From Bacteroidales bacterium (GTDB lineage Bacteria > Bacteroidota > Bacteroidia > Bacteroidales > B18-G4), in NCBI GenBank assembly GCA_018401355.1, contig JAGYLD010000018.1, positions 1 through 39,521 on the forward strand: a stretch of DNA of 39,521 bases, given 5' to 3'. The notes under the pieces were generated by a model. It saw only the letters and a list, made by a program, of their open reading frames with translations, did no database searches and was not told where the DNA came from. Numbering within the stretch: position 1 is the first letter of the stretch; the number at the start of each line of letters is the position of its first letter. Below are positions 11,557-39,521 of this stretch, in pieces. The position numbers were made by a program, and so were the translations under genes.

Positions 11557-12543
11557 TTATGGCTTGGGAACATTTTTCATATTTTGCATCATGCGCATCA
11601 TATTCCTGCCCTTAGATCCCGTCATCATGCGCATCATCTTGCTTGTTTCACCAAACTGTTTGATCAGCTTGTTTATTTCCTGGATATCCTGGCCGCTTCC
11701 CCTTGAAATTCGTTTCCTCCTGCTGCCGTCCAGTATCTTGGGATTAATTCTTTCTTCCGGGGTCATGGAGTATATGATGGCTTCAATGCCTTTGAATGCA
11801 TCATCATCAATATCAAGATTTTTTATGGCTTTTCCCATTCCCGGGATCATACCCATCAGGTCCTTAACATTCCCCATTTTTTTGATCTGCTTGATCTGGT
11901 TCAGGAAATCGTTGAAATCAAACTGATTTTTGGCAATTTTCTTTTGCAGCCGTTGGGCCTCTTTTTCATCAAATTGCTCCTGGGCCTTTTCAACCAGTGA
12001 AACAATGTCACCCATGCCGAGGATCCTGTCGGCCATACGTCCCGGGTAGAACATGTCGATGGCATCCATTTTCTCACCTATACCAACGAACTTAATGGGT
12101 TTGTTTACGATGGATTTAATAGAAAGGGCAGCACCACCGCGGGTATCTCCATCCAATTTGGTCAGGACAACGCCGTCGAAATTGAGCCTGTCGTTGAAAG
12201 CTTTGGCGGTATTGACCGCATCCTGTCCGGTCATGGAGTCCACCACAAACAAGGTTTCCTGGGGATTCAGGGTATCTTTTAATGATGAGATCTCGTTCAT
12301 CATCTGCTCATCAATGGCAAGACGGCCGGCGGTATCCACGATTACCACATTGTGACCTTTATCTTTGGCATGCTTGATGGCGTTTTTAGCAATTTTGACA
12401 GGTTCCTTGCTCCCCTCTTCTGTATATACTTCTACTGAACAAGTAAAATATAAAGAAAATAATAATGAAGCATTCTTAATCTCTTTAAAAGAATTTAGAA
12501 ATAATTTTACTAATGGCGGCGGGCCGGTAAACATCGCCGGCAA
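11557..12543 (-). pseudogene. ffh: ffh C-terminal fragment (GTPase G3-G5 and M domain)
   Basis: The genuine ffh part runs from 12435 to 11557. It holds VEVYTEEGSKEPVKIAKNAI, G3 VIVDTAGRL, G4 VLTKLDGDTRGGAALSI, the closing GIGEKMDAIDMF, and the methionine-rich M domain that binds signal peptides and 4.5S RNA ([20 protein letters not shown]). The residues encoded from 12543 to 12436 are not Ffh and come from an AT-rich replacement plus out-of-frame ffh sequence. The piece alone lacks the N domain and P-loop and has no proper start, so it cannot make a working signal recognition particle protein. Ffh is normally essential, so an assembly fault or a second copy elsewhere should be considered. Confidence 0.85.
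12436..12511. other. 76-base AT-rich segment replacing part of ffh
   Basis: Only 13 of these 76 bases are G or C, far below the flanking gene. On the ffh strand, sequence in one frame up to 12512 reads MMVAGDVYRPAAI and sequence from 12435 onward reads VEVYTEEG. An intact Ffh would have only about 11 residues between these, so the segment is both foreign in composition and about 40 bases too long. Read on the plus strand it gives EQVKYKENNNEAFLISLKEF, a protein-like string. It may be a captured scrap of AT-rich coding DNA or an assembly join. Confidence 0.6.
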
Positions 12544-12546
12544 CCA

Positions 12547-12945
12547 TCATGGGGCTTTTCCCCAATGTTTCTTTTTCAGGAAGTTGGCCAGCTTAGCGGA
12601 AAAAGTTGTTTTTCCGGAGCCCTGCAATCCTGAGATAAGGATAATGGCCGGATTGCCTTTCAGGTTAATGTCTGCTTTTTCCTCCCCCATCAGGGTTGCC
12701 ATCTCATCCCTTACGATCTTAATCATAAGCTGCCCGGGAGAAACCGCAGTCAGCACATCCTGTCCCAGTGCTTTTTCTTTTACCTGGTCGGTAAACTGCT
12801 TGGCGATCTTATAGCTTACGTCGGCATCTATCAATGCACGGCGAATTTCCTTCACGGATTCTGCTACATTGATCTCTGTAATATGACCACGCCCTTTTAA
12901 TATCTGAAACGATCGTTCCAGCTTTTCACTTAGTCCTTCAAACAT
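12547..12945 (-). pseudogene. ffh: ffh N-terminal fragment (N domain and P-loop)
   Basis: Begins MFEGLSEKLERSFQILKGRG, the normal Ffh start, and continues through the four-helix N domain to the G1 P-loop ISGLQGSGKTTFSAKLANFL. After KKKH the frame is lost: it reads WGKAP and stops, while the expected MMVAGDVYRPAAI continues in another frame at about 12550-12512. A two-base gain or one-base loss beside the inverted repeat TGGGG-CTTTT-CCCCA (12550-12564) explains this. Ffh is the SRP GTPase that guides nascent membrane proteins to FtsY. It is the first gene of the ffh-folD run. Confidence 0.85.
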
Positions 12946-13226: not shown

Positions 13227-15638
13227 ATGAAAAAAACAATTACCAGGTTTACATTGATGCTGACAAGCATTTGTCTGATATTATTTTCATATGCACAGGA
13301 TGCGCAAACCAATATCCTGGCAGGACAACAAGTTAACGAAGCTGTTAAGCAGACAAAACAGCTAAATCAGAATTCATTTGTCCAGGGAATCCCGTCCCGT
13401 CACAATTCAAACACAAACAGAGTGCTTACTGAAATCAATTTTGATGATATGTTTGGTGCACCTACTGGATTTTCCGCTGTTCTTCCGCTTCATAATGAAT
13501 ATACAGGATATGGGATAACATTTTGGGGACCGACTGCAGATGATGGGGGAGCAATACTTGATGAAGGTTCCTCTTTTGGAGTAACAGGGTATTCCCCACC
13601 AAACTTCCTGGCGTTCAATACAGGAGCAACCTTAGCCAATGGAGGAACACCACAAGGACCAGAGGACATTTATTTTGATCCTCCCGTTTCATATGTGGAA
13701 ATACTTGCTGGTTCATCTGCAGCCGGCACTATTGATATGTTCGCTTACGATGAAATGGATAACCTGCTGGATTTTGATCAATTAACAGGGTCTGATAATT
13801 TACAACTGATGTCTGTGTCCGGAGAAAGGATTGCAAAAGTAAACATCCAGTTCAGTGGAAACATCTTGGTTCTGGACAATCTTATTTTCGACACCTATCT
13901 TCCACCCGATAACCTTGAGATGCAATATTTACCGGGATCTCAAATGGCGAATTTTGAATGGAAATATGCCACCATCAACGGAATTAATGATGAATTTATG
14001 AATGATGCCTCCAATTGGATCCCTGTAACCGGTGACTGGTATATTGATCCGGGAACGTATGTTGCCGAAAATATAGATTTTCAGGTAGCAACTTCATTCT
14101 ATAATTATAACTTCTCCGGTTTTGACCTGGAAGTCAAAATGAAAAAAAGTCAGGGAAGTGGTTGCAATGTTGGAATATATTTCCATGGAGACCCATCCAA
14201 AATTAATGATACCGGTAATTGGATGAATGGATATCATTTAATTGTATGCAATAATGGTACTTATAATATTGTCCTTTATGAAAATGGAAGTTATTTTTTG
14301 ATTCAGGATATAACTTTCAGTGCAAACCTGAATACAGGAGCCGACACATATAACACCATCAGAATCATCCGTGACAATGGATACATTGAAGTGTTCTTCA
14401 ATGGTTTTCCGGAGGGCACCTGGTATGACGACACCTATAATTCAGGAAAAATCGGATTAAAGCTTTTTGATGGTAGTCCGGGAGCCGGAAAAGGATACTT
14501 CGATTATGTAAAGATCAATCCTTTAACTGACGGATTTACATTCCAGCCGGTGAACCAGGCAAAATACCGGAAAGCTTATACTGAAAACGATGATTGTGCC
14601 AATTGCAGTTCATGCACTTCGGAAGATTACACACTTGAGCTGGCCCCATACCCTCCTGAAAATCAATTTACATTTTTCGGCAACAGAGCTTTCCAGGGTT
14701 TTAATTTTTATATGAACGGCAATTTAATTGACCAAACCGGTGTTCCAAGCCATTCGTTAAACCTGACAGACTTCATGTTATATAACTTTTACGTTACGGC
14801 ACAGTATGATGAAGGTGAATCAAATACCACAAACAATGAACTGCTATGGATTATCGACAATCCATTATACAGCCAGATCCCTTACAATCCTTCTGAAGCA
14901 TGGGTTGCACATATCAGTGATGCTAACATTTTGGTACCCATGACAGTATATGATAACTTCACCAGCTCTGAAAGCATCTATGGACTTGAATTTTTGGGAC
15001 TAAATCTTGAATTCAACGGGTCATCGTATCAAACATGTAACAATGAAGATCCAATGGATTTTCTCATTAAGCTCTATGAAGATGATGGAGGCTCACCGGG
15101 AGCAGAGATAGCTTCTTTTTCACCTACGATAGAAAGAATTGAAACCAATGTAATATTTACCTTCAATAACGGAGATGCGCCGCTCTTCCACTACAGGTAC
15201 TATTTCCCAAGTCCGGTGGAACTAAATGAAGGATGGGTGTCGGTCCAGGGCACTTCCGAATCCACTCCTGATTGCCTGTTTTTATGGATGAGTTCCCCTG
15301 AAGGTGACGGTTTGGCTTACCAATCGGATGGATCTGTGATGATCCCTATTGACGACGCATCATTTGCCATTTTAGGCGAATCTTCCGTTGGGATCATAGA
15401 AGTTCCTGAAGATAATATCCGGATCTATCCTAATCCCGTCGCAAACCGTCTCTATATTGAATCTGAAATGGAGATACTGGAGGTTGCCATTTATAACCAT
15501 TTTGGTCAGGAAGTCTATCGTGAAAAATACCGGAGCAACAATATGGAAATAAATACATCTGCATTCGCTGCCGGTTTATACATGTTGAGCCTCTCTACCA
15601 GCGAAGGTAGCATTACAAAGAAGATAATTATTTATTAA
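13227..15638 (+). CDS. Large T9SS-exported protein, tandem paralogue A
   Basis: An 803-residue secreted protein of unknown function. It has a signal peptide (residues 1-23, ending near SYAQ). A beta-rich domain follows (~66-235, INFDDMFG..GFSAV, YGITFWGPT, PQGPEDIYFDPP, VLDNLIFDTYLPP), like modules often found in secreted adhesin-like proteins. Next is a concanavalin-like jelly-roll domain (~265-435, FEVKMKK-type strand, VGIYFHGD, GKIGLKLFDG). A short cysteine cluster, CANCSSC (~456), comes before a further beta region. The end is a type A sorting domain (~725-803, IRIYPNPVANRLYIES ... SITKKIIIY). It starts with ATG at 13227. The next gene, 40 bases downstream, is a close paralogue. No catalytic motif was recognised; glycan binding is only suggested by the jelly-roll fold. 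Confidence 0.85.
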   Translation: MKKTITRFTLMLTSICLILFSYAQDAQTNILAGQQVNEAVKQTKQLNQNSFVQGIPSRHNSNTNRVLTEINFDDMFGAPTGFSAVLPLHNEYTGYGITFWGPTADDGGAILDEGSSFGVTGYSPPNFLAFNTGATLANGGTPQGPEDIYFDPPVSYVEILAGSSAAGTIDMFAYDEMDNLLDFDQLTGSDNLQLMSVSGERIAKVNIQFSGNILVLDNLIFDTYLPPDNLEMQYLPGSQMANFEWKYATINGINDEFMNDASNWIPVTGDWYIDPGTYVAENIDFQVATSFYNYNFSGFDLEVKMKKSQGSGCNVGIYFHGDPSKINDTGNWMNGYHLIVCNNGTYNIVLYENGSYFLIQDITFSANLNTGADTYNTIRIIRDNGYIEVFFNGFPEGTWYDDTYNSGKIGLKLFDGSPGAGKGYFDYVKINPLTDGFTFQPVNQAKYRKAYTENDDCANCSSCTSEDYTLELAPYPPENQFTFFGNRAFQGFNFYMNGNLIDQTGVPSHSLNLTDFMLYNFYVTAQYDEGESNTTNNELLWIIDNPLYSQIPYNPSEAWVAHISDANILVPMTVYDNFTSSESIYGLEFLGLNLEFNGSSYQTCNNEDPMDFLIKLYEDDGGSPGAEIASFSPTIERIETNVIFTFNNGDAPLFHYRYYFPSPVELNEGWVSVQGTSESTPDCLFLWMSSPEGDGLAYQSDGSVMIPIDDASFAILGESSVGIIEVPEDNIRIYPNPVANRLYIESEMEILEVAIYNHFGQEVYREKYRSNNMEINTSAFAAGLYMLSLSTSEGSITKKIIIY

Positions 15639-15678
15639 TATCGAATAGCATAATATTTATTAACTAATACCTTTTGTC

Positions 15679-18087
15679 ATGAAAAAAACAATTACAAGGC
15701 TCACAATCCTATTTCTGGGGTTATTTCTTTTAAATATTTCCGGTGCACAGGAAGCCGGGGAATACTATCAGGCAGGAATACTTGTGCAAGAAGCTGTTAA
15801 ACCGGCAAACGAGGCCAGTCAAAACTCTTTTGTCCAGGGGATCCCTTCCAGGAATCAATCTTTTACCAACAGGGTTTTTACAGAAATCAATTTTGATGAT
15901 ATGTTTGGTGTACCTACTGGATTTTCTGCTGTTTATCCTCTTAATTACGAATATTCAGGCTATGGGATTACATTCTGGGGACCGACTCCAGATGATGGCG
16001 GGGCGGTACTCGATGAGGGTTCTAATTTTGGAGTCACAGGATATTCCGCACCGAACTTCCTGGCATTCAATACAGGATCAACCTTAGCCAATGGAGGAAC
16101 ACCGCAAGGACCAGAGGACATTTATTTTGATCCTCCGGTAGCTTATGTTGAAATTCTGGCCGGCTCAGCAAACGCAGGTACCATTGAAATGTTTGCTTAC
16201 GATGAATTGGATAACTTACTGGACTTTGATCAACTAACGGGGGCTAGTAATCTGCAACTGATATCTGTTGCCGGAGAAAGGATTGCCAAAGTTACCATTC
16301 AATTCAGTGGAAATGTGTTGGTTCTGGACAATCTGGTCTTCAACACCTATCTCCCACCCGATGATCTTGAAATGGATTATTTCCCGGGATCCCAGATGGC
16401 TGAATTTGAATGGAAATACGCAACCATGAACGGCATTGATGAGGAATTCATCTATGATGCAAACAACTGGATACCGGTAACCGGTGACTGGTATATTGAC
16501 CCGGGTGAATATGTGGCTGAAAATATTGATTATCAAACAGCTTCATCCTTTTATAATTACAATTTCTCAGGATTTGACATGGAAGTCAAAATGAAAAAGA
16601 ACACAGGCAATGAATGTAACGTTGGAATTTATTTTCATGGAGATCCGTCAAATATTAATAATAATGGTGGTTGGATGAATGGTTATCACCTGATCATTTG
16701 TTCAGATGGTCGCTATAATATTGTACTTTTTGAGAACGGAAGTCCTACGTTTATTCAAAACATAACTATAAGTCCAAATCTGAATACGGGATTAAATAAT
16801 TATAACACCGTAAGAATTGCACGTGAAAACGGCTATATTGAAGTCTATTTCAATGGGATTTATGAAAATACCTGGTATGACGACACCTATAATTCGGGAA
16901 AAATCGGACTAAAACTTTACGACCCTTCAGCAGGTGGGGGTCTGGGATTTTTCGATTTTGTTAAAATCAGTCCGGTCACAGACGGTTTTGCATTCCAACC
17001 GGTAAACCAACCAGAATACAGGAAGTATTTTGCTGAAACCGGAGAATGTGCAAACTGCAGTACATGTAATGATGAAAATTACACCCTTAAGCTTGCGCCA
17101 AATCCTCCTGAAAGCCAATTTACATTTCATAATGACAGGGTCTTCCAGGATTTTAACTTCTATATGAATGGCAATGTCATTGATCAACCCAATGTTCCAA
17201 ATCATTCATTGAACCTGACAGATTTCATGTTATACAATTTTTATGTATCGGCACAATACGATGAAGGAGAATCCAACCCCACCAACAATGAAATGCTTTG
17301 GTTAATAGATAATCCTCTGTACAGCCAGTTTCCTGCCAATCCGAGTGAATATTGGAACGCATATACCAGTGATGCCAATGCTACAGAGGCTTATCTTGTT
17401 TATGACAATTTTACCTCCACAAACGTAATACGGGGAATCGAGTTTCTTGGAATAAACCTTGAAAACGATGGTACATGGCATGTATGTGATGGCGAGGATC
17501 CAATGGATTTCATTATTAAATTCTACCAGGATGATGCAGGTATGCCGGGATCAGAAGTAGCATCATATAATGCAACACTGGAGAGGATTGAAACCAACAT
17601 TTATTATGGCCTTGGTTCCATGCAAATACCTCTTTATCATTACAGGTATTATTTCCCAACCCCTGTTGATCTTAGTGAAGGTTGGGTTTCAGTTCAGGGA
17701 AATTCTCTATCCTCACCAGATTGCTGGTATCTCTGGCTATCCTCACCTGAAGGAGACGGCCTGGCTTATCAATGGGATGGTTTTGATATGAACCCGATTG
17801 ATGACATTTCTTTTGCTATATTGGGAGAATCTTCCGTAAGCATTGAGGAAGTCATGCAAAACAGCATTAATATCTATCCCAATCCTGCAACCGATCACCT
17901 GTATATCGAATCCGAACTGAATACTGCAGAGGTGACCATATACAATCATTTCGGACAGGAAGTTTATCGTATAGAACATCCTGGGAACATATTGGAAATC
18001 AACACTTCAACATTTGCAAATGGTGTTTACCTTGTTCGCCTTTCAACCGATAAAGGAAGCGTTACAAGAAAAGTAATAGTCCAATAA
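15679..18087 (+). CDS. Large T9SS-exported protein, tandem paralogue B
   Basis: An 802-residue protein that aligns end to end with its upstream neighbour. By eye the ~170-residue N-terminal domain is about 85% identical, while the middle and C-terminal parts differ more. It has the same parts: signal peptide ending near SGAQ, INFDDMFGVPTGFSAV domain, jelly-roll domain with VGIYFHGD and GKIGLKLYDP, cysteine cluster CANCSTC, beta domain with RYYFPTPVDLSEGWVSVQGN, and type A sorting domain (INIYPNPATDHLYIES ... SVTRKVIVQ). A recent tandem duplication is likely. Both open frames are intact, so both are probably expressed as one transcript, perhaps ended by the inverted repeat that follows. Confidence 0.85.
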   Translation: MKKTITRLTILFLGLFLLNISGAQEAGEYYQAGILVQEAVKPANEASQNSFVQGIPSRNQSFTNRVFTEINFDDMFGVPTGFSAVYPLNYEYSGYGITFWGPTPDDGGAVLDEGSNFGVTGYSAPNFLAFNTGSTLANGGTPQGPEDIYFDPPVAYVEILAGSANAGTIEMFAYDELDNLLDFDQLTGASNLQLISVAGERIAKVTIQFSGNVLVLDNLVFNTYLPPDDLEMDYFPGSQMAEFEWKYATMNGIDEEFIYDANNWIPVTGDWYIDPGEYVAENIDYQTASSFYNYNFSGFDMEVKMKKNTGNECNVGIYFHGDPSNINNNGGWMNGYHLIICSDGRYNIVLFENGSPTFIQNITISPNLNTGLNNYNTVRIARENGYIEVYFNGIYENTWYDDTYNSGKIGLKLYDPSAGGGLGFFDFVKISPVTDGFAFQPVNQPEYRKYFAETGECANCSTCNDENYTLKLAPNPPESQFTFHNDRVFQDFNFYMNGNVIDQPNVPNHSLNLTDFMLYNFYVSAQYDEGESNPTNNEMLWLIDNPLYSQFPANPSEYWNAYTSDANATEAYLVYDNFTSTNVIRGIEFLGINLENDGTWHVCDGEDPMDFIIKFYQDDAGMPGSEVASYNATLERIETNIYYGLGSMQIPLYHYRYYFPTPVDLSEGWVSVQGNSLSSPDCWYLWLSSPEGDGLAYQWDGFDMNPIDDISFAILGESSVSIEEVMQNSINIYPNPATDHLYIESELNTAEVTIYNHFGQEVYRIEHPGNILEINTSTFANGVYLVRLSTDKGSVTRKVIVQ

Positions 18088-31093: not shown

Positions 31094-31678
31094 ATGAAAG
31101 ACCTGAGCAAAGGTAAAGAAAGCCGCCTGATACTGCATTTCGCAACACCAATGCTGCTGGGCAATATATTTCAGCAGATGTATAATGTTGTTGACAGCAT
31201 TATCATTGGAAACGTCATCGGAAAAGAGGGTCTGGCTGCTGTTGGAGCATCTTTTCCCATTCTGTTCACGATGATTTCACTGATCATTGGAATCGCTATC
31301 GGATCAACTGTCATCATATCTCAATATTACGGTGCGAAGGACATTGAAAAAGTAAAAAAGGCCATTGACACCCTTTACATCTTTATATTTTTTGCTTCAA
31401 TTTTCATATCGGTTGTTGGTATATTATCGAGTGATGCTATATTCAGGCTCATTAAGCTTCCTGAGAATGTTATTCCCCAGGCCAGCCTTTATCTGAAGAT
31501 ATATTTTTCAGGAATGTTACTTTTTTTCGGTTTCAACGCAACCAGTGCCATTCTCAGAGGGCTTGGCGACTCCAAAACACCCCTTTATTTCATGATCATA
31601 TCAACAATAACAAACATTGTTCTTGATCTGTTATTCATTGTTGGATTTGGATGGGGAGTGGCAGGAGCAGCCATTTAG
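31094..31678 (+). pseudogene. MATE efflux transporter, intact N-terminal part of a decayed gene
   Basis: Opens MKDLSKGKESRLILHFATPM and continues as a normal MATE transporter through about five membrane segments (NIFQQMYNVVDSIIIGNVIG, GIAIGSTVIISQYYGAK, ILRGLGDSKTPLYFMIISTI). It stops at TAG after GWGVAGAAI. The expected continuation ATIIAQGG resumes at once in another frame, so a two-base gain or one-base loss ended it. MATE proteins export cationic drugs or metabolites with Na+ or H+ and need about 12 segments, so this half is not expected to work. Confidence 0.88.
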
Positions 31679-32404
31679 CTACGATAATTGCCCAGGGCGG
31701 AGTTAAGCCGACTGCCATTATTTATCTTAACAAAAACTTCCACTGTATAAAACCTATCCTGAGGAAACTGTATTTTGTCCGTGACATATCCATAAAAAAC
31801 ATCCGTACGGATTTCCCATTGGGTTTCAGCAAGCCTTTGTTGCCTTGGCATGACTGTTATGTACTGGCTTAGAATCCATTTGGCACGGAAACTGTGGCTG
31901 CCTATAGTGTTGTTTTCAGGATTGACCTTTGCAGCTATGCCGGCAATGAACTTTGCTGCAGCATTTTCCACTTTCGTCGGTCAAAACCTGGGAGCCAATA
32001 AACCCCACCGTATCAAAACAGGTTTGATTGCTACATTCAGGATGACGTCTTTGCTTGCTGTTACCATATCCATCATTAACATTGTATTTTGCAAAAAACA
32101 TTATAGGTTTTTTACATCCGATGCAGAGGGTAAAGATCGTGCCGAATACCTGATTGTAAGTCCGTTTTACATAACCTTTACTGCCATGTTCGCTGTCGGT
32201 GGGGTTATGAGAGTAGCAGGAGATACGAGGAAGTACCAATGGTCATTGGTATCTACTTTATGTCGCGATACCTGCCTGCTACCTGCTTCCAAATCATATG
32301 GAGCTGTTGGAATCTAGGGCATCCCGCTGGCCTGGCTCACCTGGGTTGATACTTTTATACATTTACTACCTTTCCAAGAAATGCATGTTCCAAAGCTTTG
32401 GTAA
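31679..32404 (+). pseudogene. MATE transporter, frameshifted C-terminal remainder
   Basis: Recognisable MATE pieces follow in changing frames: ATIIAQGG and IIYLNKNFHCIKP (to ~31830), then VMYWL, then PFGTETVAAYSVVFRID, then the longest piece FAAMPAMNFAAAFSTFVGQN through MFAVGGVMRVAGDT (31918-32230), then VPMVIG, PACYLL and GIPLAWLT. Near 32317 an in-frame TAG stands where relatives have Trp. At least five small insertions or deletions are needed to restore one frame. Order and content are kept, so decay by point lesions rather than rearrangement is likely. From 32405 to 32612 no gene was seen. Confidence 0.8.
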
Positions 32405-36425: not shown

Positions 36426-37595
36426 TCATTCATCAGGAAATTTCTCAGGTTTTGAAAACTCCGGGTTCGCAATAAATTCCTCATCCCTCAGTGTTTTAAT
36501 AAATGCGATCAGATCTGCTTTTTCCTGGGCAGTAAGCTGGGTACCCCCATTGGCGATATGATGCATCAGTGGGTCGATTTGAGGAGACCAAACCAGGTGA
36601 TGAGAGTAAAATTCAACTACTTCCTCCAGGGTCTTGAACCTGCCATCATGCATATATGGTGCAGTATATTCAATATTTCTCAGGGTAGTAGCTTTGTATG
36701 CACCTTTATCATTGGGATCTCCTGTAATGGAATACCGGTCCAGCGGATCATTAAAAACCGAATCTTTCCCATTATTATAATATAAATGTGTTGTAAACAA
36801 TGGGTTTCCTGCTGCACCGTGGCAATGAAAACAATCTGCTCCCTCTTCTGTAGTAAAAAGCACATAGCCATTTAGCTCAGAGCCTGTCAGTTGGACTTCA
36901 CCACGCATGAACTTATCAAATTTTGAATTGGCGGATATCAGGGTTCTAATAAATTGTGCAATGGCTTTGCTCATATTTTTAACTGTCACCTGATCTGATC
37001 CAAAGGCTTTTTTAAATAATTCAGGATAACCGGGTGTATTTTGAATGACAGCTTTGGCCTTGTTGGTATCACTGTTCATCTCATGAGGTGCAACAATGCC
37101 CATCCATACAAGATCTTCAATATTCCTGAATTTGGGATCCGGGTTATTGGGATTCACCTTCCCATTCCAAAGATAGCCGGTGTGATTCCAAACAAGATTC
37201 ATCAAAGGAAGCATAACATGATGGGTTGGGATACCGGTAACTCCAAAGGTATATCCTCCGGTATATTTGGGATGGTTGATGCCACATTCAAAAGAGTTTT
37301 CCTGTATATGGCATGTGGCACAACTCATCATGGAGTCAGGATGGGTTCGGCCTGAGATCCTTCCATCATAAAACAGATAACGCCCAAGTTCCAAACCTTC
37401 CACAGTCATAGGATTGTCTTCAGGAATATTCAGTTTGGTGGGAAAACCAAAAGGAATGTCGATTTCGTATGGAGTAGGTTCATATCCTGATGGTAGTGGT
37501 TCCGGATCATCAGATTTTTTACAGGAGATTATCAGAAAGACAATTAATCCTGCAATCAGTATTAAAAATAGCCTGTGATCAGAAAAACTTTTCAT
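36426..37595 (-). CDS. Di-haem cytochrome c peroxidase / MbnH-MauG-like lipoprotein
   Basis: A 389-residue exported protein with lipoprotein signal (LIVFLIISCKK, cysteine 25). Two c-haem sites are visible, CATCH (Cys92, Cys95, His96) and CFHCH (Cys255, Cys258, His259), with family segments GRYLFYDGRISG, TLRNIEYTAPYMHDGRFKTLEEVVEFYS and QEKADLIAFIKTL. The family contains peroxide-reducing cytochrome c peroxidases and MauG/MbnH, which oxidise residues of partner proteins. It overlaps the MbnP-like gene by 4 bases (ATGA), which favours the MbnH role: making a copper ligand from tryptophan in MbnP. Peroxidase function cannot be excluded. Confidence 0.88.
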   Translation of the reverse strand: MKSFSDHRLFLILIAGLIVFLIISCKKSDDPEPLPSGYEPTPYEIDIPFGFPTKLNIPEDNPMTVEGLELGRYLFYDGRISGRTHPDSMMSCATCHIQENSFECGINHPKYTGGYTFGVTGIPTHHVMLPLMNLVWNHTGYLWNGKVNPNNPDPKFRNIEDLVWMGIVAPHEMNSDTNKAKAVIQNTPGYPELFKKAFGSDQVTVKNMSKAIAQFIRTLISANSKFDKFMRGEVQLTGSELNGYVLFTTEEGADCFHCHGAAGNPLFTTHLYYNNGKDSVFNDPLDRYSITGDPNDKGAYKATTLRNIEYTAPYMHDGRFKTLEEVVEFYSHHLVWSPQIDPLMHHIANGGTQLTAQEKADLIAFIKTLRDEEFIANPEFSKPEKFPDE

Positions 37596-38392
37596 TTTGT
37601 CACCTCCATGTCAAAAACATTCCAGCCATTTTCACTGGCGATCTTCATGGCTTCCTGGTTCTGCATAATATATCCTCCCCAGATATCGTGATCATATAAA
37701 TGAGGATCCTTAAACCAACGCTCTATGTTCATAGTAAGGGTAAAATCCAATACCTGGTTTTCAGAAATGCTGAAAGCAAGATCAGGAAAACCTACCTTAA
37801 AATCATTATGAACAAACCCAACTATTTGTCCGGCAGTATCCAGTATCTGGCCTATTCCAAGATGAAAATCAAAAGGCTCCACGATCTCGTCCTGATTGTC
37901 CCATTTACCGTTAAGTTTCATGTAATGGTAACCACCACCAAGATATTCCGGCCAAAACATGAATGACTCCGGGGGATTGACAAACATAAAAGACTGGTTT
38001 TTTTCCTGACTGATACCAAAAATAAAAGATATTGAATCATAAACTCCTGCAGGAATCTCATCAGGGATATCCCAATAATGTGTTGAAGGCAGGTCAGTGT
38101 CAATATAATGAATATCCTTCCAGGCCCTGATAAGAATATCTTTTCCATTGCTGCGATGAAGTGTGAGATCAGAAATAAAATACTGGATTTCATTTATGAG
38201 ATATTGGTTTCCGGCTTCATTAAAATACATAAGTGTATCTATAACCAGATCCTTTCCATCAACATAGTGTCTGAAATGCAGGCTGATTTTTCCGGTTGGT
38301 TCAATATCATTGGACTCTTCACTTTCTTTCTTACAGGAAGAAAGGACAAGTAAGATCACGACAATAAGCAGATATGGAAATAGTTTCTTCAT
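37592..38392 (-). CDS. MbnP family lipoprotein (copper-binding candidate)
   Basis: A 266-residue protein with lipoprotein signal (VVILLVLSSCKKE). The body has MbnP-family segments: KISLHFRHYVDGKDLVIDTL, YLINEIQYFISDLTLHRSNG, SISFIFGIS, FWPEYLGGGYHYMKLNGKW and FDFHLGIG, ending in LTMNIERWFKDP.LYDHD. In methanotrophs MbnP binds copper through histidines and a kynurenine made from tryptophan by the di-haem partner MbnH. The overlapping downstream gene is just such a di-haem protein. Which tryptophan would be modified cannot be told here. Copper is inferred from the family; another metal is possible. Confidence 0.85.
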   Translation of the reverse strand: MKKLFPYLLIVVILLVLSSCKKESEESNDIEPTGKISLHFRHYVDGKDLVIDTLMYFNEAGNQYLINEIQYFISDLTLHRSNGKDILIRAWKDIHYIDTDLPSTHYWDIPDEIPAGVYDSISFIFGISQEKNQSFMFVNPPESFMFWPEYLGGGYHYMKLNGKWDNQDEIVEPFDFHLGIGQILDTAGQIVGFVHNDFKVGFPDLAFSISENQVLDFTLTMNIERWFKDPHLYDHDIWGGYIMQNQEAMKIASENGWNVFDMEVTK

Positions 38393-38437
38393 TATTACTC
38401 CTTACCATAAGACAAATATTGTGGCTTTGGCGTTGCT

Positions 38438-38800
38438 TTATTCAAAGGGGACTGTTCCCGAAACAGTGACATACCTCAAAGTATCGTTCATACTGGAGCC
38501 TTGCTTGAATATCTTTCCGTCAATGAATATCTGAACTTTTATTCCATCGGTTGGATTTTTATACAAAGCGGACATAAACACAATATCTCCCTGCTCACCC
38601 TGAAAGGAATACTGCCAGACATCTTCTCTACTTTCAGGGATTACCTGGGTTTTGATCAAGTGACTTTTGACATCCCTGTAATTCAGAAAGAAACCGGTAC
38701 TGTTATCAGAAACCTGATAAACAATATCTTTTTTTTCCTCTTTATTGCAAGCCAGTAATGAAAGCGTCAGGAAAACTATAAGTATGTTCATTATTTTCAT
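38438..38800 (-). CDS. Small lipoprotein of unknown function
   Basis: A 120-residue protein with a clear lipoprotein signal (MKIMNILIVFLTLSLLACNK, lipidated Cys18). The rest is beta-strand-like (DNSTGFFLNYRDVKSHLIKT, GDIVFMSALYKNPTDGIKVQ) and ends in a DTLRYVTVSGTVPFE segment. No family was recognised. It lies 5 bases after the TonB receptor stop and 45 bases before the MbnP-like gene, so it is probably part of the same surface metal operon, perhaps as a surface or periplasmic accessory of the receptor. Confidence 0.8.
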   Translation of the reverse strand: MKIMNILIVFLTLSLLACNKEEKKDIVYQVSDNSTGFFLNYRDVKSHLIKTQVIPESREDVWQYSFQGEQGDIVFMSALYKNPTDGIKVQIFIDGKIFKQGSSMNDTLRYVTVSGTVPFE

Positions 38801-38805
38801 ATAAC

Positions 38806-39521
38806 TTACAATTTAAAAATTAGATTAACATAAAACGATCTTCCAGGTTCATAAAGGTTTTTCATGCTTCCGATGATCCTTCTGTTCAGATGCTCATAAT
38901 ATGCTTTATCAAAAAGATTGTTGATACCTCCGGCCACCGTAAGATACTCATTGAAATTCCATTTCATTGAAGCGCCTGCTGTAACAAAACCAGGTGTCTC
39001 CTCTTCATTATAAGAAGCAGAGGGACGATCCTGTTTTGCAACCATCCTTACATTTATTCCCGGCACCAGGCTTCCCTTGAAAAAGCTATAATCCAATTCA
39101 ATCCGGGCCTCCAGTGGAGGTATTTCAGGTAGCGGATCGTTATTAACTTTTTTGATTTCCTGAAGATTGCCACTTTCAAAGATGTACTCTTCCGCTTCGG
39201 GATTGATGCCACAAGTCCTTGCCACAGACAATCCTCCTGACCAATTATAAACTGCAGGAGACCGGTAAGTCAATTCCCAACCCCACAAGTAAGCTTCGGG
39301 AATATTCTCAAACTGTTTGACGCCAAGAACACCTGCAGTTTGAGGTTTAGCAATAGATGGGGGAACATACATCCCTGTGATGTAATCATTCACATATGAA
39401 AAGAACCCGGTGACTCCTATGTATCCGGCTCTGTTGTTTTTATATTCGAATTTCAGGTCGGCTTCATGATTTACTTCAGGCTTAAGCTGCGGATTACCCA
39501 GGTAATCATACCTGTCATATC
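38806..39521 (-). CDS. TonB-dependent outer-membrane receptor (C-terminal part)
   Basis: The frame is open to the window edge, so the first part of the gene lies outside. About 238 residues remain. They read as the last strands of a TonB receptor barrel: YDYLGNPQLKPEVNHEADLK (the LGNP-LKPE motif), then VNDYITGMYVP, SYNEEETPGFVTAGASMKWN, VAGGINNLFDKAYYEHLNRR and the terminal GRSFYVNLIFKL with a closing aromatic/hydrophobic strand. Such receptors import metal complexes or other nutrients with ExbBD-TonB energy. Its operon with MbnP- and MbnH-like genes suggests a metal or metal-chelate substrate. An internal GTG at 39393 is not the true start. Confidence 0.93.
   Translation of the reverse strand, partial: YDRYDYLGNPQLKPEVNHEADLKFEYKNNRAGYIGVTGFFSYVNDYITGMYVPPSIAKPQTAGVLGVKQFENIPEAYLWGWELTYRSPAVYNWSGGLSVARTCGINPEAEEYIFESGNLQEIKKVNNDPLPEIPPLEARIELDYSFFKGSLVPGINVRMVAKQDRPSASYNEEETPGFVTAGASMKWNFNEYLTVAGGINNLFDKAYYEHLNRRIIGSMKNLYEPGRSFYVNLIFKL

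Follow-up and report, generated by a model that had tools for sequence, protein, structure and literature searches.

A conserved Bacteroidales module of a TonB-dependent receptor, a small lipoprotein, and MbnP- and MbnH-like proteins, with a probable role in copper import

The window analyzed here is a 39,521-nucleotide stretch of DNA from a Bacteroidales bacterium (contig JAGYLD010000018.1, assembly GCA_018401355.1) and corresponds to a whole contig of a 2.93-Mb genome that is 83% complete. At its right end, four minus-strand genes encode, in this order, a TonB-dependent receptor fragment, a small lipoprotein, an MbnP-like protein, and an MbnH-like protein. The receptor fragment comprises the C-terminal 237 residues (38806-39519; PF00593, 82.4 bits), the 5' part of its gene lying past the contig end. 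The ensuing gene (38438-38800) encodes a 120-residue lipoprotein (Cys18) predicted by its AlphaFold2 model to be an MmpS5-like β-sandwich, and is followed by the genes of a 266-residue, putatively copper-binding MbnP-like lipoprotein (37592-38392, Cys20) and of a 389-residue MbnH-like di-haem c enzyme (36426-37595; PF03150, 128.5 bits; TIGR04039, 213.7 bits), itself a lipoprotein (Cys25). The stop of mbnP and the start of mbnH overlap by 4 bases (37592-37595), while the remaining intergenic gaps amount to 5 bases between the receptor and lipoprotein genes and 45 bases between the latter and mbnP. The closest named relatives of the window MbnP come from Bacteroidales and Bacteroidota metagenome-assembled genomes. 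Among 77 mbnP loci from the window, its family, and its order (the order hits G226 and G194 being left out), some of which are interrupted by contig ends, 22 hold all four genes within three genes of mbnP, and 17 of these 22 display the exact uninterrupted order of the window, the variant orders being those of L054, L064, L083, L084, and L115. Such a recurrence indicates that the grouping is not due to chance: the four-gene operon is real, and the conserved module spans 12 families of one order. A preliminary description of this DNA, made from the sequence alone, had proposed the operon and its 4-base overlap, and the coordinates, family scores, and recurrence bear it out. A promoter and terminator scan found no excess over shuffled sequences. 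The adjoining 518-residue gene was considered as a further operon member and rejected, since it lies on the opposite strand and, among the loci searched, homologous pieces occur in L086 only. In four loci (L044, L106, L115, and L124), a protein of 214-224 residues is encoded between mbnP and mbnH; the two that were scanned, those of L044 and L115, contain a surface immunoglobulin-like domain (PF16403).

The window MbnP scores 84.8 bits with PF20243, above the gathering cut-off of 27, and belongs to this superfamily. Its AlphaFold2 model, computed with 41 homologues, has a predicted local distance difference test (pLDDT) score of 94.9. The first match returned by Foldseek with this model is the M. 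trichosporium MbnP (7L6G, E = 4.7e-9), on which it superimposes with a Z score of 16.6 (214 aligned residues, root-mean-square deviation, rmsd, of 3.5), the next entry having a Z score of 7.5; the predicted structure is that of the MbnP fold. Sequence and profile searches of the Protein Data Bank with the window MbnP found no relative, weak chance matches at most, and the relationship to the solved MbnP surfaced only through the structure model. No match was obtained with the window MbnP in plasmids, nor in a scan of viral contigs. Comparison of its profile by hhalign with seven plasmid-encoded MbnPs of other phyla (probability 97.9, E = 4e-13) pairs Met145-Phe-Trp147 (codons at 37952-37960) with an M-x-W segment that contains the first Trp of a WxW motif, and His177-Leu-Gly (His177 codon at 37862-37864) with an HLGS motif. 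All seven of these proteins possess WxW, and six each possess the Met and the HLGS His, the Deinococcus protein being devoid of that His. In the M. trichosporium MbnP, the first Trp is reportedly converted to kynurenine, and a His and a Met are said to be the copper ligands. Met145 and His177 are therefore candidate copper ligands and Trp147 a candidate kynurenine precursor, to which His156 (GGGYHY segment, codon at 37925-37927) may be added as a lineage-specific extra ligand. Indeed, Met145, Trp147, His156, and His177 are all kept in 75 of the 76 order MbnPs that cover this region (out of 77). In the rest of the phylum (112 MbnPs from 110 loci, two weak open reading frames, ORFs, being dropped and 11 of 124 hits, each of at most 82 bits, left out of the set), Met145 is found in 91 proteins, Trp147 in 108, His177 in 112, and His156 in 8, and WxW is seen in the site region of 101. 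By these alignments, the candidate site of the window and its order is therefore distinct, with one Trp replacing WxW and a His156 added. A conserved Trp/His site had been suggested beforehand as something to look for, and the pair Trp147 and His177 answers to it, within the order and elsewhere in the phylum alike.

Regarding the MbnH-like protein, the closest solved structure is 6E1C (E = 1.1e-48), which we take to be MbnH of M. trichosporium and which is also closest to the M. parvus MbnH. The window protein contains CxxCH motifs at residues 92-96 (C92-H96) and 255-259 (C255-H259), together with Trp143, which we assume to be the inter-haem Trp of MbnH/MauG-like enzymes, and Tyr330. The position of the latter corresponds in the alignment to Met258 of the di-haem peroxidase 1IQC, presumably a haem ligand in that enzyme, with MauG and MbnH presumably using a Tyr there. 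A conserved ligand Tyr has been described (PMC6405878). Both CxxCH motifs, Trp143, Tyr330, and the lipobox Cys25 are each present in 47 of 47 order MbnHs, namely those near an MbnP and above 400 bits, and the haem, Trp, and Tyr positions are also occupied in four of four MbnHs of other phyla, one of which possesses the lipobox Cys. Among 119 di-haem ORFs near phylum MbnPs, all exhibit the CxxCH motifs, 108 Tyr330, and 90 Trp143. Judged by these residues, the window protein follows the MbnH-like/MauG-like di-haem pattern of two CxxCH motifs, a Trp, and a Tyr in place of the peroxidase Met. Of note, the MbnH genes in the plasmid records L129, L164, L165, and L166 are labelled 'methanobactin export MATE transporter MbnM', a misannotation since their products align with MbnH and have two CxxCH motifs.

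The two proteins travel together. Within 295 order genomes, PF20243 was found in 72 and MbnH in 72: both occur in 68 genomes, MbnP only in 4, MbnH only in 4, and neither in 219, so that 68 of 72 MbnP genomes have an MbnH. Here, a TIGR04039 match was counted as MbnH if it extended to model position 327 or further, a rule set once the list had been seen because bit scores alone fail to separate MbnH from other di-haem peroxidases. Among the MbnP-only genomes, the MbnP of G002 is cut by the contig end, G194 was matched via a fragment only, G121 carries its MbnP on a 5.2-kb contig followed by a 675-residue ORF, and G072 carries L110, the one order MbnP without the entire site. In the rest of the phylum, all 112 examined MbnPs have an MbnH-like ORF at most 400 bases away on the same strand. 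The idea that an MbnP without an adjoining MbnH lacks a partner was rejected, as 27 of 31 loci without MbnH within three genes belong to genomes with MbnH elsewhere; of the rest, G002, G072, and G121 have no genome match and G006 lay outside that search. An MbnH-model ORF is present in each of 20 separate MbnH loci taken from genomes of the two subtypes. A second order subtype (L078, L080, L089, L097, L105, L117, and L125) consists of a TonB receptor with the OprC motif described below followed by an MbnP with Met159 in place of Lys, with no small lipoprotein in between and with MbnH elsewhere in the genome. Altogether, 17 order MbnPs have Met159; one has a neighbouring MbnH, and for the remaining 16 the genome contains an MbnH match.

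By homology with M. trichosporium, Trp147 would be oxidised by MbnH ahead of copper loading or in its course, kynurenine being the most likely product, and by this analogy a kynurenine in the window MbnP is likely. Alternatively, copper would indeed be taken up but Trp147 would stay unmodified, with Met145, His156, and His177 binding the metal and MbnH acting as a surface peroxidase, or as a copper reductase or oxidase that sets the redox state for the importer. Four Trp-less MbnPs outside the order that retain MbnH and both His positions fit this alternative, as does the gain of His156 in the order lineage, since Trp147 might then no longer be needed as a ligand. However, Trp147 is present in 75 of 76 order MbnPs and 108 of 112 others of the phylum, and all 47 order MbnHs have Tyr330 where the peroxidase 1IQC has a Met, which makes an unmodified Trp unlikely. 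The idea that MbnPs lose the Trp when MbnH is lost was also considered and rejected: G072 fits within the order, while the four phylum cases do not. These Trp-less MbnPs with an intact MbnH (L265, L276, L279, and L281) represent a natural control for MbnH function.

The window receptor copy ends before the part that would reveal its metal site and has to be judged from its relatives, the receptors of its genus mates comprising 700-702 residues. Six full-length MbnP-linked receptors of relatives were scanned, and in all six the TIGR01778 TonB-copper model is best, with 174-249 bits, ahead of the haem models, whereas at E ≤ 1e-20 it matches none of the 10 scanned among the 14 other receptors of this genome. 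The copper site of OprC is formed by Cys143, Met147, His323, and Met325, that is, CxxxM-HxM (PMC8610252). Of the MbnP-linked receptors exceeding 600 residues, 34 of 35 show this pair at aligned positions (the exception being L091), in the form CPNRM or CPSRM followed by H-x-M, with a Cys-to-His spacing of 182 residues in L085 as compared with 180 in OprC. The genus mates L085 and L086 both have full-length receptors with TIGR01778 as best model and with CxxxM-HxM. In contrast, this genome's 14 other receptors all lack the pair; three of them, L192, L195, and L203, are truncated at the 5' end of their stretch and may partly lack the plug. The Ideonella receptor beside MbnP and MbnH contains both motif halves, 199 residues apart, as seen without alignment. 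These data suggest that the receptor is of the OprC type. A different ligand, such as haem, vitamin B12, a siderophore, or a chelated metal, would mean that MbnP and MbnH had been recruited for another purpose; in its favour, the window fragment alone scores best with a hemin model, MmpS proteins work with siderophore exporters in mycobacteria, and a recognised TonB gene is missing from the surroundings of 37 of 77 MbnP loci. We regard this as improbable in view of the 34 of 35 MbnP-linked receptors with CxxxM-HxM against 0 of 14 others, of the copper model scoring above the haem models in every full-length receptor scanned, and of the copper genes that adjoin MbnP in other phyla.

The small lipoprotein does not reach the cut-off of any Pfam family. 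Its AlphaFold2 model (pLDDT 93.6) resembles MmpS5 (8EM5; Z score 12.5, rmsd 2.0, 90 of 92 residues aligned), the next unrelated entry having a Z score of 9.0, and the predicted fold is thus shared with MmpS4/MmpS5 (8EM5, 9MVZ, and 2LW3). Unlike MmpS proteins, it has no match with PF05423 (MmpS), and this family matches weakly in 2 of 32 relatives, with a best E of 0.0025. Of 295 order genomes, 36 contain a strong lipoprotein match (at least 82 bits), and 34 of these also contain MbnP, the exceptions being G057 and G069; the small lipoprotein is therefore tied to MbnP within the order. The query was built from MbnP-linked proteins, with 15 first-look candidates scored per genome, and the 82-bit line was set afterwards, the next match, of 68.5 bits, belonging to G166, an MbnP genome. 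Conversely, 38 of 72 order MbnP genomes have no strong match, and none was found in the short flanks of the 110 phylum loci outside the order.

The mature N-termini read C-K-K-E-S-E-E for MbnP, C-N-K-E-E for the small lipoprotein, and C-K-K-S-D-D for MbnH. The lipoprotein export signal of Capnocytophaga is minimally K-(D/E)2 near the Cys (C-X-K-(D/E)2; KKEVEEE in MucG), and the B. fragilis consensus is SDDDD (PMC5080379). A simple search for a K-(D/E)2-like pattern finds it in 24 of 58 MbnPs, 11 of 28 small lipoproteins, and 21 of 40 MbnHs with a recognised lipobox, which was itself recognised in 58 of 74, 28 of 32, and 40 of 47 proteins, respectively. All three proteins are probably located on the outer membrane beside the receptor. 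A comparable arrangement exists in BtuB-BtuG, a TonB transporter with a ligand-capturing surface lipoprotein, and lipoprotein-assisted TonB uptake has been proposed to be general in Bacteroides (PMC10404256). BtuB-BtuG differs in that its ligand is B12, and no modifying enzyme is mentioned in its abstract (PMC10404256).

The genomic context of MbnP in other phyla points to copper. The Paracoccus neighbourhood comprises MbnP, MbnH, PCuAC, and SCO, that of Ideonella DUF2946, MbnP, MbnH, and TonB, and that of Deinococcus MbnP, a peroxidase, CopC, and CopD. MbnP/MbnH-like genes have been reported in operons led by DUF2946 genes, with a copper-responsive member in Bordetella (PMC9426467). A role of the module in copper handling, as read from its sequences, is very likely. 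Copper defence is conceivable, with MbnP and MbnH sequestering or oxidising excess Cu(I) at the surface and not feeding an importer, since the CopC and CopD genes beside the Deinococcus MbnP are a context that can mean resistance. However, the operon includes a putative OprC-type importer, and copper represses OprC/NosA, CorA, and BfrG, all of which have been linked to its uptake (PMC8610252, PMC3912023, PMC9426467), which leaves defence more improbable still than another ligand. The preliminary description had seen no sign of methanobactin, and as far as tested this holds: the MbnB family PF05114 has no match in the 83%-complete genome, MbnC and MbnA not having been searched. Its proposal of a wider surface copper-uptake system gains from the OprC motif of the relatives' receptors, while a spread beyond methanobactin is not new, as Kenney and Rosenzweig reported in 2013 that the MbnP/MbnH pair is conserved far beyond methanobactin producers and that isolated pairs lie near TonB transporters (PMC3621798).

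Taken together, we consider it probable that the operon encodes a copper importer of the OprC type that is assisted by lipoproteins, with a copper site in MbnP matured by MbnH. The receptor would carry copper across the outer membrane through the CxxxM-HxM site that its relatives possess. MbnP would hold a copper ion by Met145, His177, and probably His156, around Trp147. MbnP, MbnH, and the MmpS-fold lipoprotein may capture copper and pass it on to the receptor, as BtuG does for BtuB, the small lipoprotein being probably a dedicated docking or lid subunit; by this analogy, a lid-type capture at the surface is plausible. Methanobactin would not be needed, given the absence of MbnB. A more far-reaching version, in which the operon is a copper counterpart of BtuBG, with an importer and surface lipoproteins, a third type of site (Met, two His, and kynurenine) intermediate between MbnP and MopE/CorA, a lipid-anchored MbnH maturing it at the cell surface, and a dedicated MmpS-fold lid or docking lipoprotein, is put forward tentatively, as a possibility with rather more against it than for it.

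Several observations weigh against the importer reading. The window MbnP obtains 20.2 bits with TIGR04052 (MbnP_like_WxW; cut-off 140), its site reading M-F-W-P-E without the second Trp of WxW, and the window MbnH remains below the TIGR04039 equivalog cut-off of 362.85, which is exceeded by the MbnH of none of the 295 order genomes; with Pfam matches but scores below the TIGR04052 and TIGR04039 cut-offs, both proteins are therefore members of wider families and not of the NCBI equivalogs. The window receptor fragment alone ranks TonB-hemin (96.5 bits) before hemlactrns (84.2) and TonB-copper (81.5), the six full-length MbnP-linked receptors scanned as well as the fragment fall below the TIGR01778 cut-off of 472.45, and the M. 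parvus receptor beside the canonical MbnP and MbnH has no CxxxM-HxM. The four MbnPs outside the order with a Val at position 147 (L265, L276, L279, and L281, in G402, G387, G608, and G676) keep an adjoining MbnH with intact haem motifs, Trp143, and Tyr330, so that MbnH is not always tied to Trp147, and the reading does not account for the oxidant that MbnH would require. The strict export-signal pattern is present in about half or less of each lipoprotein set, and surface exposure is therefore inferred. Lastly, a heme-copper oxidase was considered as the destination of this copper and rejected: neither this genome (83% complete) nor its genus mate G007 yielded one, and across the order MbnP is weakly associated with COX1 (odds ratio 2.07, p 0.009 by a Fisher test that ignores the relatedness of genomes).

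As compared with known systems, the operon shares with the methanotroph MbnP and MbnH the gene order TonB, MbnP, MbnH and the 4-base overlap, both seen at the M. parvus locus L129 (TonB, MbnP, MbnH, mbnA, mbnB, and mbnC), as well as the predicted MbnP fold, the M-x-W ... HLG site, and the haem, Trp, and Tyr positions of the di-haem enzyme. It differs by the lack of detected methanobactin genes, the single Trp and conserved His156, the extra lipoprotein, the lipoprotein nature of MbnH itself, and the probably OprC-type receptor. With the OprC/NosA copper transporters (TIGR01778), the relatives' receptors share CxxxM-HxM at near-identical spacing; unlike them, they remain below the family cut-off and belong to an operon with lipoproteins, MbnP, and MbnH. 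The methanotroph MopE/CorA proteins possess a copper site of kynurenine and two His and, with SACCP/CorB, a co-transcribed di-haem protein (PMC3912023). CorA, MopE, and SACCP are located at the cell surface, whereas CorB is said to be mainly periplasmic (PMC3912023), in contrast to what we propose for the Bacteroidales operon; the likeness of site, di-haem partner, and location is drawn from these descriptions. An OprC-like receptor with the motif was already known in the Bacteroidota species Bizionia argentinensis (PMC11213822). Already known, then, are the MbnP/MbnH pair, its occurrence outside methanobactin producers and close to TonB receptors, and OprC-like receptors in Bacteroidota. We found no paper naming both OprC and MbnP or dealing with MbnP in Bacteroidota, most subscription papers lying outside the search; as far as this search reaches, the four-gene module, with its OprC-type receptor, MmpS-fold lipoprotein, and one-Trp, added-His site, is new.

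Elsewhere in the window, an apparent signal recognition particle protein Ffh, recognised by eye, lies at 11557-12945 (minus strand); its N-terminal 132 residues (12547-12945) are followed by a 325-residue ORF in another frame, an apparent frameshift that is perhaps an assembly error. At 31094-32317 (plus strand), a MATE-type transporter, also recognised by eye, is seemingly broken into ORFs of 194 and 155 residues, and the two tandem genes at 13227-18087 (plus strand), which encode 803 and 802 residues and have similar starts, are probably duplicates.

Bacterial copper acquisition was still termed poorly characterised in 2026 (PMC12914433). If the importer reading is correct, a copper protein of the MbnP kind and its enzyme partner would be present in roughly one in four phylum genomes sampled (PF20243 being found in 101 of 392), and one order would have wired this pair, along with lipoproteins, to an importer of the OprC type. 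Three questions thereby become directly testable, namely the purpose of MbnP in organisms other than methanotrophs, whether every MbnH oxidises a Trp, and whether TonB uptake aided by lipoproteins also applies to bare metal ions.

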